This document shows positions 50,980-54,287 of a DNA stretch of 64,000 bases, in pieces (the stretch's first letter is position 1; each line of letters opens with the position of its first letter). A program made the translations under genes and the position numbers. The stretch lies in the NCBI GenBank assembly GCA_003158855.1, contig PMLJ01000034.1:124001-188000 (forward strand). The letters run 5' to 3'. Origin of the DNA: Acidimicrobiaceae bacterium. Its GTDB lineage: Bacteria; Actinomycetota; Acidimicrobiia; Acidimicrobiales; RAAP-2. Under the pieces are notes generated by a model that saw nothing but the letters and a program-made list of their open reading frames with translations, was not told the origin of the DNA and made no database searches.

Positions 50980-52695
50980 CTACCTGGCACGGCGGCTCCC
51001 GGCTCTGGGTGCGGCCACCTTGACGACGGTCGCGGCCGCTTCGCGAGCGGTCTTCTTCGCCGGCATTGCTGCTCGTCCGAGGATGGTGCTGTGAGGCCTT
51101 CGCACGTTCAGCGTGGTCGTCGGGTTCCGAGCGACTCGAGGTGCTGCATCCCTCACCCTGGTGAGGCGATTGCGGCGCTCGTCGAGACGCTCGAAGATGT
51201 GCGATGACTGGTTGGGGTAGCTCGCGAGAGACTCGTCGATGAGCGAGACCGCCTCGATCACGGGCGCTTTCGGGTCCACCGGTACCGCACCCCAGCTGCC
51301 ACCTTCGACCGCATCAACGACGGTCATCGAGGCGAGCATCTCGGCCAGACGCGGCGTGCGGCACCCGTCGTCCCACGCCTTGCGCAGGAGCCGGTAGGCC
51401 CACTCCCGGCCGCCCTCGACGCGACGAACGTCCGCCACTCGCGCGATGCCGTAGCCGGCGGCGTCGAGGTGACCTGCTCGTCGCAGCTCTCCGTAGAACC
51501 CTTCCTTCGGTCGCCCCCGCTTGCGCGCAACCTTCGGGTTGTAGCCGGCCAGGAACTCGCTGGCGCGCTTCTTCGAGGGCTTGGCGAACGGGTCGAACTT
51601 GTCCTGCACGAAGGCATCGACGCACCGACGAAGGACTCCGTCGAAGTCGCACGTGCCGCTCTCGTTGGCGCAGCGCTCGCAGGCGTCCTCTGGCGTGCAC
51701 GGTCCCAACCAGTCGAGATAGGGGGCCAGTTCGTTGCGGTACACCTCGAGAACGTACTCGGGGTCTTCGACTCGTCGTAGGGCTTGGCCCACACCGCGCA
51801 GCAGGCGGCCGATGGTCGCGCGGCTCAGCGTGTCGTCCGCGTCGATGGACGCGAGCGCCCACGTGGTGACCTGACGCGCGTGCGCCTGGGTGATGATGCC
51901 GTCTTCCATTCGCGTGGGCAAGATGGCGCAGTCCTCCCCGAGGCACACGTCGAGCGCCAGCGACCGACTTCGTCCGTCCGAGAGGTCCGCGAGGTGCGCC
52001 GATCGATGCGCGTCCGTGAGTTCGACTTCGGGCTCTACGGGCACGACCCAACTGCCGCCAGTCTCCCCGTCGTAGGTGACACACAGACCGTCGAGCACTG
52101 CTGCGAGGTCGATGGTCTTCTCGTCTTCGACGATGCGATGGAGCAACTCCACCGCGGCGGCGGCGGCCGCGGCGGTGTCGCCGAGTGCGGTGTGCGGCGC
52201 GGAGTTCGTCAGGCCGAGTGCGGCGAGCAGCGCCTCGAGGGACTTGCGCTCGGGGTGAACGTGGGCCGCCTCGACGAGCTTCGCCGTGTCGAGCAGTTGC
52301 AACGGCGGCAAGGTCAAACCAAGACGCCGGTACTCGCCGGCCAGCTTGTGAGCGTCGAAGCTCACCTTGTGCCCGATGAGCGTGAGGGTGTCGCCCTCGG
52401 GAGCGGTGAGCCACTGTGTCACTTCATCGACCAGCACGTCGAACGATGATGCGTCCTCGAGGAGGTCAGCGGTGAGTCCGTTCTTGGCAATGGCGCCGGG
52501 ATCCATTGGCACGTTCCCCGGGTTCACGAGCCAGAGTTTCGAGTCGGCTGCGATGCCATTGCGCAGTTCGATTACCGCGAGCGAGAGGATGCGCACGTCA
52601 CCGTAGAGCCCGTTCGTCTCGCAGTCCACGACGACCAGGCGCCGGCCCTTCACGTGCAGTTGTTTGGGCGACCGGCCCCGCTTGCTCGTCGCCAT
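50980..52695 (-). CDS. DnaQ-like (DEDD) 3'-5' exonuclease with C-terminal Cys-cluster and basic/AT-hook-like region
   Basis: RLVVVDCETNGLYGDVRILSLAVIE, IGHKVSFDAHKLAGEYRRLG, APHTALGDTAAAAAAAVELL; CTPEDACERCANESGTC; KRGRPKEGFYGELRR; basic C-terminus. Confidence 0.8.
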   Translation of the reverse strand: MATSKRGRSPKQLHVKGRRLVVVDCETNGLYGDVRILSLAVIELRNGIAADSKLWLVNPGNVPMDPGAIAKNGLTADLLEDASSFDVLVDEVTQWLTAPEGDTLTLIGHKVSFDAHKLAGEYRRLGLTLPPLQLLDTAKLVEAAHVHPERKSLEALLAALGLTNSAPHTALGDTAAAAAAAVELLHRIVEDEKTIDLAAVLDGLCVTYDGETGGSWVVPVEPEVELTDAHRSAHLADLSDGRSRSLALDVCLGEDCAILPTRMEDGIITQAHARQVTTWALASIDADDTLSRATIGRLLRGVGQALRRVEDPEYVLEVYRNELAPYLDWLGPCTPEDACERCANESGTCDFDGVLRRCVDAFVQDKFDPFAKPSKKRASEFLAGYNPKVARKRGRPKEGFYGELRRAGHLDAAGYGIARVADVRRVEGGREWAYRLLRKAWDDGCRTPRLAEMLASMTVVDAVEGGSWGAVPVDPKAPVIEAVSLIDESLASYPNQSSHIFERLDERRNRLTRVRDAAPRVARNPTTTLNVRRPHSTILGRAAMPAKKTAREAAATVVKVAAPRAGSRRAR

Positions 52696-54287
52696 CAGAG
52701 ACCGGCCTGCTTCACGAGGCGTTCGGTCATCGTCTCATCGAGCAGCGACCGCACCATACGAACGTCGGCGATGGACCGCACCGGCGGAGCGAACCCGTCG
52801 TGCAGTAGTGCGTCGGTGACCAGCGCGTTGGCGACTGTCTGGAGGTTGTCGAACACGCCGTTGGCTCGTAGCGTCATCAGGTCGAGCAGTCGGTTCGTAC
52901 GCTCGAGGTTCCCGAAGCCTGGTCCTCGCACGTTCATTGTCGGCTTTACGATGTCGAACAGCGTGGCTTCCAGCGACCCAGTGGAGCGCGGCAGGACGCG
53001 GCTCTGGTCGAGTACCGGCATCTGCGCATCAACCCTGGGCTTCACTTCGTTTATCCACTTGTGCGGCCACGCGCTCGGCGCGATCTTCTGTGCCCTCATC
53101 CGGTTCTCGTAGTCGCCCCACCACGTGTGCCAGGCAACCGACGACGAGGAGAACGACCAGTTCTGCAATCGATCCTCGAGGTCACCGGGCCTGAAGTTGT
53201 GCTCGCTGGAAAGCTTGGCGAGTTGGCGACGAAGCTGCTGGCGCAGGTGGTACGCGGACAGGCACACGGCGAAGGGCTTGCCCGGGTTGCTCTTCTCGAG
53301 CCAACGCACGGCTGCCCCGATGCCGGTCCCGCCGTCGGCCATCACGATGTCGGGAACGTAGCCCAGTTCGGCCAGCACGAGTTTGTAAGCGTCACCGGAG
53401 TGGTCGGGGTAGGCGCGCAACAGACGAAGTCGCGTGACGCGTTGGCCCTTGTCGAGGTCGATAAACGACTCCGAGGCCGCGAGCACCGAGAACCGCTGAC
53501 GCTGGCGGGTCCCCTGGCGTGCCTTCACGAAGACGGGGATGTCGTCGAGCAGCAGCGACACGACCTGTCGGTCCTTCGTCGGTTGCGCGAACGCCTCATC
53601 GACCTCGGCGCGTGCGGCCGCGGCCCACGGCTCGAAGAGCACTGGACTGAACGTCTCGACCCAGTCGGCGGCGAGACGCCACGAGTTCTTTCGTTGCCTC
53701 GACTTCTCGCGACTGCTCGACGTGATGCGTGTGCTGGTGTGGCCCGTGAGTGCGAGCATCTGCTGTTTTGCCCATACCGCGGTCGAGCCGTACGAGTCCC
53801 CGTCCGCGAGCTCGGCGAGCGCTGCGGCAACGACGCGCGTCGTGAACTTGTAGCCGTGCGCGACGTTGGTGTCGCCTTGGTTCACTCCGCGTTCACGCGA
53901 ACACTCGGGGCACGTCTCGCCGTGGTCCACCACGAGGCGCGACAGCACCGGGGTGAAGCGGTGCTCCGCGTCGCCGTTGTTCGGGTAGCAGCGGTAGCGC
54001 TGGCGCTCGACGCCGCGCGCCCTCTTCGTCTTGCCGTCTCGAACCGTGCGGCTCAGCGGGTGCTTGGGGCACCGTTCTGGCGGTGAGTACGGCGTCGGCT
54101 CAGGTGTGGCGCTGCCGCTCGCGTACGACTTCAGAGTGTGGGCCGCGTCACTGTTGTTGGGGCGGCAAAGGTAGCGCTGGTACGTGACGCCGGCGACCTT
54201 TCGGGTGCCATTCTTCACTACCGAACTGGATGCGTGACCAGGTAGCGGACACGTGATAGCCCAGACAGGACTTGGTCTCTTGTCCAA
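52695..54287 (-). CDS. Putative DDE transposase with N-terminal zinc-ribbon-like repeats
   Basis: CPLPGH...YLCRPNN, CPKHPLSR...YRCYPNNGD, CPECSRERG; candidate DDE residues in LLLDDIPVF, IVMADGGTGIG, GSLEATL; starts just inside the right TIR. Confidence 0.75.
   Translation of the reverse strand: MDKRPSPVWAITCPLPGHASSSVVKNGTRKVAGVTYQRYLCRPNNSDAAHTLKSYASGSATPEPTPYSPPERCPKHPLSRTVRDGKTKRARGVERQRYRCYPNNGDAEHRFTPVLSRLVVDHGETCPECSRERGVNQGDTNVAHGYKFTTRVVAAALAELADGDSYGSTAVWAKQQMLALTGHTSTRITSSSREKSRQRKNSWRLAADWVETFSPVLFEPWAAAARAEVDEAFAQPTKDRQVVSLLLDDIPVFVKARQGTRQRQRFSVLAASESFIDLDKGQRVTRLRLLRAYPDHSGDAYKLVLAELGYVPDIVMADGGTGIGAAVRWLEKSNPGKPFAVCLSAYHLRQQLRRQLAKLSSEHNFRPGDLEDRLQNWSFSSSSVAWHTWWGDYENRMRAQKIAPSAWPHKWINEVKPRVDAQMPVLDQSRVLPRSTGSLEATLFDIVKPTMNVRGPGFGNLERTNRLLDLMTLRANGVFDNLQTVANALVTDALLHDGFAPPVRSIADVRMVRSLLDETMTERLVKQAGL

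Follow-up and report, generated by a model that had tools for sequence, protein, structure and literature searches.

Accessory DnaQ-like exonucleases have been noted before in a few eukaryotic DNA transposons, their roles only guessed at. The KolobokD elements of animals encode a DDE transposase, of a superfamily called close to MuDR, P and hAT, and a DEDDh DnaQ-type exonuclease, which the authors suggested degrades DNA intermediates starting at the 3′ end (PMC9587614). Two members of the Dada elements, the transposase of which is distantly similar to those of MuDR and IS256 (a DxxH motif is mentioned), carry a DnaQ-like exonuclease, for which a role in the processing of cleaved 3′ ends was proposed (PMC3706591). 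Outside transposons, the Cas1-Cas2/DEDDh trimmer-integrase pairs a DnaQ-like DEDDh exonuclease with a DNA integrase (PMC10284694). The section on the elements in the account by Guerillot et al. of prokaryotic Mutator-like (p-MULT) transposases gives them target duplications of 8-9 bp and inverted repeats of 18-39 bp with a conserved terminal cytosine, and lists as their accessory open reading frames (ORFs) recombinases and unknown ORFs, with no exonuclease among those described there (PMC3942029). Literature searches found no bacterial transposase with a DnaQ partner; ISfinder lay outside these searches and may already list the family reported here. We analyzed a 64,000-nt stretch of an Acidimicrobiaceae genome (assembly GCA_003158855.1, contig PMLJ01000034.1, positions 124,001 to 188,000; hereafter the window), in which the gene for a transposase, Tnp, overlaps that for a DEDDh exonuclease. 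The locus is likely to be a complete transposon of a new, narrowly distributed Mutator/IS256 clade, with a two-gene core of Tnp and the coupled exonuclease, a module that would process 3′ ends.

Results

Boundaries, target duplication and empty site

The complete transposon occupies window positions 45204-54364 (9,161 bp) and carries, in order, the genes for Tnp, the DEDDh exonuclease, a type III Mod, Res and two small membrane proteins. A repeat search of the window returned 46-nt inverted arms at 45203-45248 and 54320-54365 that are 91% complementary; the two ends are identical over the outermost 24/24 nt, and the terminal inverted repeat (TIR) measures about 45 bp. The 8-bp sequence TAATTGGA brackets the element on either side, within a gene for a BNR-repeat-like protein:

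45196..45203, no strand: left target-site duplication, TAATTGGA
45204..45248, plus strand: left TIR, beginning AAGATTCGGCGTTTGGTGGAGATTTTGGTTGAT
54320..54364, minus strand: right TIR
54365..54372, no strand: right target-site duplication, TAATTGGA
54365..54903, minus strand: interrupted host gene, 5′ half (BNR-repeat-like protein)
44493..45203, minus strand: interrupted host gene, 3′ half

Removal in silico of 45204-54364 together with one copy of TAATTGGA joined the two host ORFs as one 416-aa frame. The same gene is uninterrupted, at 93% identity, in genome G381 of the same genus, the DNA of which aligns with the junction over 400/400 nt without gaps and contains one target copy only; uninterrupted versions were found in four further genomes. 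Because the host ORF is restored on removal and the gene is intact in G381, we conclude that the window holds a 9,161-bp insertion. Symmetrically placed 8-bp duplications also flank related elements in genome G067 and at locus L002, and a duplication of this length is common to these three, to five elements with a shorter form of Tnp and to several elements that lack Tnp (both below). A 33-bp TIR pair in G400 has no target duplication. The window's genome has a single copy of Tnp, which would suit a Tnp-exonuclease pair that had been domesticated as an immobile host operon. That idea must contend with the clean 8-bp duplications, the TIRs, the interrupted gene, the intact unoccupied site of a close relative and the complete elements in G067 and L002; the empty site largely refutes it, and we consider it exceedingly improbable.

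Kinship of the transposase

52695..54287, minus strand: transposase Tnp, long form, 530 aa, TTG start; repeated zinc ribbons, then a predicted RNase H-like DDE core

The name 'transposase' in the original prediction was a guess made without a family match, and it needed proof because the window's Tnp matches nothing in Pfam, NCBIfam, PADLOC, PHROG or the PDB; PDB profile searches with Tnp alignments likewise returned chance matches only. The name is now backed by the inverted repeats, the 8-bp duplication, the empty site and relatives with recognizable families. Short-form relatives (about 400 aa) match the MULE (PF10551) and Transposase_mut (PF00872) models, and one of them, L014, exceeds the Transposase_mut gathering score (27.3 vs 21 bits). 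Among 14 members, the NCBIfam models for IS1249 and IS256 matched six and four, respectively (best E-values 9.6e-7 and 7.9e-8).

The core residues of Tnp are D248, D318 and E440, with H347 in a CxxH-type motif. Alignments of 9 and 14 diverse homologues showed D248 and D318 to be invariant and E440 nearly so (D in genome G030); H347 is also invariant, lying in RCEHH, RCEWH or SCEHH in the short forms and in C/SxxYH in the long forms. From these conserved residues an RNase H-like fold is predicted for the core. A CxxH-type motif between the second D and the E is a feature of the Mutator/IS256 family. E462, within 'NLERTNR', was considered as the catalytic Glu and dropped, as the short forms conserve E440 and not E462.

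On the DDE/H residues, the matches of the short forms to MULE, Transposase_mut, IS1249 and IS256, and the 8-bp duplication, we place Tnp in the Mutator/IS256 (IS256/IS1249) superfamily as a very divergent clade. With the IS256/IS1249 group, as described in the p-MULT account, the clade has in common TIRs, 8-bp duplications, the order of the DDE residues together with a CxxH-type motif and, in relatives, zinc-binding segments near the N-terminus (PMC3942029). Unlike that group, the long forms (about 530-570 aa, against about 400-430 aa) give no above-threshold match of their own, have extra N-terminal zinc ribbons and keep a constant exonuclease partner; their TIRs of about 45 bp lie outside the 18-39 bp range and, in place of a conserved terminal cytosine, have variable tips (AAG, CCC, AGT, AGG). 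Profile searches found relatives of Tnp almost confined to the same class, and none in the viral contigs or plasmids searched.

The exonuclease and its coupling to Tnp

50980..52695, minus strand: DEDDh (DnaQ-like) exonuclease, 571 aa; start overlaps the Tnp stop
52123..52695, minus strand: catalytic domain, with D24, E26, D114, H168 and D173
51649..51699, minus strand: Cys cluster of the C-terminal part (C333, C339, C342, C349), which presumably binds zinc

The DEDD motifs noted earlier in the N-terminus belong to a DEDDh domain: residues 21-179 match Pfam RNase_T (E=2.4e-14), the protein matches the PADLOC DEDDh model (1.1e-20), and the best PDB matches of the domain are the 8fyc (DEDDh) and 8fy9 (Cas2-DEDDh) chains. 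The DxE...D...HxxxxD active site is kept in all 11 homologues; down to about 20-25% identity all five DEDDh residues remain, and the C-terminal parts of the farthest members are 18-22% identical to that of the window. The Cys cluster also proved to be conserved (5/5 diverse homologues), while the RGRP segment likened to an AT-hook is present and limited to the window's subclade (window, G067, G533 and G400). We therefore predict, from these motifs, that the partner protein is a 3′-5′ DNA exonuclease.

The exonuclease gene lies directly downstream of the long-form Tnp gene in 11/11 loci, from 11 genomes: the window, G067, L002/G512, G099, G369, G533, G400, G427, G420, G410 (with a truncated Tnp) and G378 (where the contig ends within the exonuclease). 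In every one of them the exonuclease start overlaps the Tnp stop, as ATGA, GTGA or TGATG; the window has TGATG, the junction shared by ORFs 54287..52695 and 52695..50980, just as first proposed. A profile of the exonuclease C-terminal part hit 11 places in 81 genomes of the genus, nine directly downstream of Tnp and two in fragments; it had no hit elsewhere in 248 phylum genomes. Searched by itself, the C-terminal part from the window matched only G000, the genome of the window, and G067 among 396 genomes of the class. No exonuclease accompanies the short-form Tnp at L014, L015, L096, L097, L145, L147, L148 or L149. In the Tnp tree the presence of the exonuclease changes once (support 100/100, and 100/99 on core columns). 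As the short-form relatives are ordinary insertion sequences without an exonuclease, the exonuclease marks one clade and not the whole superfamily.

The two proteins appear to have been inherited together. Pairwise identities of Tnp and of the exonuclease are closely correlated (r=0.989, Mantel p=2e-4, 9 pairs), and ratios of nonsynonymous to synonymous substitutions (dN/dS; Nei-Gojobori) are similar, at 0.14 and 0.29 for the exonuclease and 0.15 and 0.21 for Tnp, values that are rough because dS is near 1. The close pair L142/L143 gave a dN/dS of 1.26 at a dS of 0.02, a divergence too small to interpret.

Cargo genes and independence from restriction-modification

49237..50973, minus strand: type III methyltransferase Mod, 578 aa; N6_N4_Mtase 1.1e-44, MTase_III 4e-124
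46752..49244, minus strand: type III restriction enzyme Res, 830 aa; ResIII 7.8e-16, REase_III 3e-52
46330..46839, minus strand: ORF for a small membrane protein, 169 aa, which overlaps the end of res; weak PADLOC '2TM' effector match, E=0.0056
45428..45913, minus strand: small membrane protein ORF, 161 aa; no significant family match

The adjoining genes of the Mod and Res families identify a type III restriction-modification (R-M) system. These genes and those for the small membrane proteins are, by comparison of the loci, exchangeable cargo. A complete element of 4,176 bp (L002:7875-12050), flanked by the 8-bp duplication GCCGCAGC, has Tnp and the exonuclease and no R-M genes. The window and G067 are 56% identical in Tnp and 52% in the exonuclease, with only 27% identity over 340 aa in Mod and 24% over 245 aa in Res, which belong to different subtypes; the window and G400 have all four in common (Tnp, exonuclease, Mod and Res 57, 51, 64 and 54%). 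Elsewhere the pair adjoins AbiE and ATPase genes (G099) or UvrD and NERD genes (G369). The short-form element L015:6873-10737 (genome G030), with 27-bp perfect TIRs, carries on the opposite strand a GmrSD_N-HNH endonuclease and an EcoRI-type adenine methylase and has no exonuclease. The proposal that the exonuclease tracks R-M genes was rejected in view of the L002 element and of the differing R-M genes that accompany the common Tnp and exonuclease of the window and G067.

These comparisons bear on whether the exonuclease is instead a DEDD-type defence or counter-defence effector, acting with Mod/Res or alone, that stands beside Tnp by chance. Its gene lies directly upstream of mod in the window, its N-terminal part matches the PADLOC phage-defence candidate PDC-S48 (E=7e-20), and defence and toxin-antitoxin genes are frequent in the listed cargo of this transposon family. 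However, the exonuclease occupies the same place with overlapping codons in all 11 long-form loci whatever the cargo, including a complete element without R-M; it is missing both from the R-M-bearing short-form L015 and from those Tnp-less cargo elements that were examined; and it co-diverges with Tnp (r=0.99) while the Mod/Res of the window and G067 differ in subtype. An effector beside Tnp by chance is thus improbable, and an action with Mod/Res, one of two roles first suggested, is contradicted by the exchange of R-M cargo around a constant pair. The other suggestion, of a distinct transposition module with a dedicated nuclease, fares better: the adjacency of the two homologues holds across genomes with and without R-M genes, albeit in one clade only, and the processing of ends, gaps or the donor site is a matter of interpretation.

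Tnp-less elements with the same ends

Many closely spaced inverted pairs came up in the genus when 151 genomes of the family were searched with the TIR core TCGGCGTTTNGTGGANAT. With the boundary placed 5 nt beyond the core, which is its position in the window, G067 and L025, an 8-bp duplication stood exactly at the boundary with all eight positions matching at L025, L057, L059, L063, L064, L067 and L068, and with seven of eight at L024, L056, L058, L062, L065 and L066. Between such ends lie genes for AbiEii, RhuM-Fic, AAA ATPases, an AadA_C-type nucleotidyltransferase, a helix-turn-helix protein and TnpB; L073 (nucleotidyltransferase and HEPN, MntA/HepT-like) has TIRs and no good duplication. 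The exonuclease was absent from the Tnp-less cargo elements examined. As no full-length Tnp was recognised among their listed ORFs, these same-end elements are probably moved in trans by the Tnp-exonuclease machinery. In this family, restriction, AbiE, RhuM-Fic and MntA/HepT-like genes travel in small, defined vehicles (0.2-9 kb, with clear ends), and such vehicles bear on how defence genes spread.

Several of these elements have features of their own. The 2.2-kb element L025:508-2697 (genome G063) has inverted ends of about 90 nt and the 8-bp duplication GGAACTTC, and carries an AbiE-type pair; its match to the Tnp C-terminus is a remnant of only about 38 residues. RhuM-Fic genes lie between TIRs with exact 8-bp duplications at L057 and L064, in two genomes of the genus, L064 being nested in another TIR pair. 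At L062 (genome G397), a Tnp-less element of 1.26 kb has an AadA_C nucleotidyltransferase (aminoglycoside adenylyltransferase-like) as its only main cargo, and at L067 (genome G360) a TnpB-like gene, of the IS605 type, sits within another transposon's ends, with the exact 8-bp duplication CGTTGTCG. The window's own genome contains a 1.5-kb Tnp-less element with similar ends and a 7/8 duplication (L024, G000:C20:93011-94533), which the window's Tnp might mobilize in trans.

Discussion

The element ends, the 8-bp duplication, the empty site, the strict coupling, the joint inheritance, the intact active sites and the exchange of cargo are each documented at the level of sequence. Because Tnp and the exonuclease are inherited as one unit across differing cargoes, the exonuclease probably belongs to the transposition machinery. 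In the mechanism we propose, Tnp would bind the repeats of about 45 bp and join the 3′ ends to target strands staggered by 8 nt; the exonuclease, produced in equal amount beside Tnp, would clear away superfluous 3′ single strands as the element is excised or inserted. Candidate substrates are 3′ tails of flanking DNA left on the element, broken 3′ ends at the donor site, or the spacer within a circular intermediate, the last belonging to the copy-out/paste-in route known for IS256-type elements (PMC7780238). The exonuclease would thus act on 3′ ends made in transposition, the sequence being compatible with more than one such end.

Several observations weigh against this model. Any 3′-5′ exonuclease endangers the 3′-OH end that is to be transferred. 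Short-form relatives with 8-bp duplications move without an exonuclease, so that it is a clade-specific addition that meets no universal need. TIRs were not found for the exonuclease-bearing loci G099, G369, G427, G420, G410 and G378, some of which lie at contig ends (contigs of metagenome-assembled genomes cut off several loci). AlphaFold models, built from two-sequence alignments, had a mean pLDDT (predicted local distance difference test) of 37 and 43 and are unreliable for any Tnp-exonuclease interface. The PDC-S48 match described above belongs here as well.

The exonuclease might also serve the element outside the chemistry of strand transfer, degrading or remodelling the donor site or competing intermediates and so affecting copy number, the choice of repair pathway or the host response. 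A 3′-5′ polarity suits the 3′ ends of donor flanks, movement of the short forms without the enzyme suggests an accessory rather than an essential role, and for KolobokD, too, such a degrading function has been suggested (PMC9587614); strict translational coupling and the lack of any loss within the clade suggest instead a stoichiometric partner. We consider such a role rather unlikely, though a more serious contender than a defence effector, and favor the processing of 3′ ends in transposition itself.

By its published description KolobokD resembles the window's element in joining a DDE transposase to an element-encoded DEDDh exonuclease, and differs in being eukaryotic, in its transposase superfamily and in an exonuclease related to TREX/ERI1/exuperantia (PMC9587614); the two associations are probably independent. 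Dada, as published, likewise combines in two members a MuDR/IS256-like transposase with a DnaQ-like exonuclease, which is of the DEDDy type and lies within the transposase; these elements are eukaryotic, make 6-7-bp duplications and target small RNA genes (PMC3706591). The Cas1-Cas2/DEDDh trimmer-integrase provides the nearest solved chains, but has no DDE transposase and trims prespacers with an exonuclease fused to Cas2 (PMC10284694). As a bolder and tentative proposal, about which we are slightly more doubtful than confident, Tnp may work only together with its co-translated exonuclease, which would trim 3′ ends within the transpososome; the pair would then be a cellular counterpart to KolobokD/Dada and the CRISPR trimmer-integrase that evolved independently, and also a vehicle, acting both in cis and in trans, for the spread of defence and toxin-antitoxin genes through this actinobacterial lineage. 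The association seen here is strict, in at least 11 loci, and stands beside exonuclease-free sister elements with the same 8-bp target duplication; the role of the exonuclease in transposition is therefore directly testable in bacteria.

Neighbouring features

Outside the element, on both sides, the window contains six dispersed copies of a direct repeat of about 58 nt with the core GGTTGCAGACYTGTYRCGYCGGGCC, which looks like a genomic family of intergenic repeats:

43709-43766: repeat copy
44392-44449: repeat copy
54977-55034: repeat copy
56781-56838: repeat copy
57228-57285: repeat copy
58815-58872: repeat copy

Just beyond the element, at window positions 54951-55871, lies a Sir2-family gene (SIR2 1.1e-41), the product of which is probably an ordinary deacetylase.

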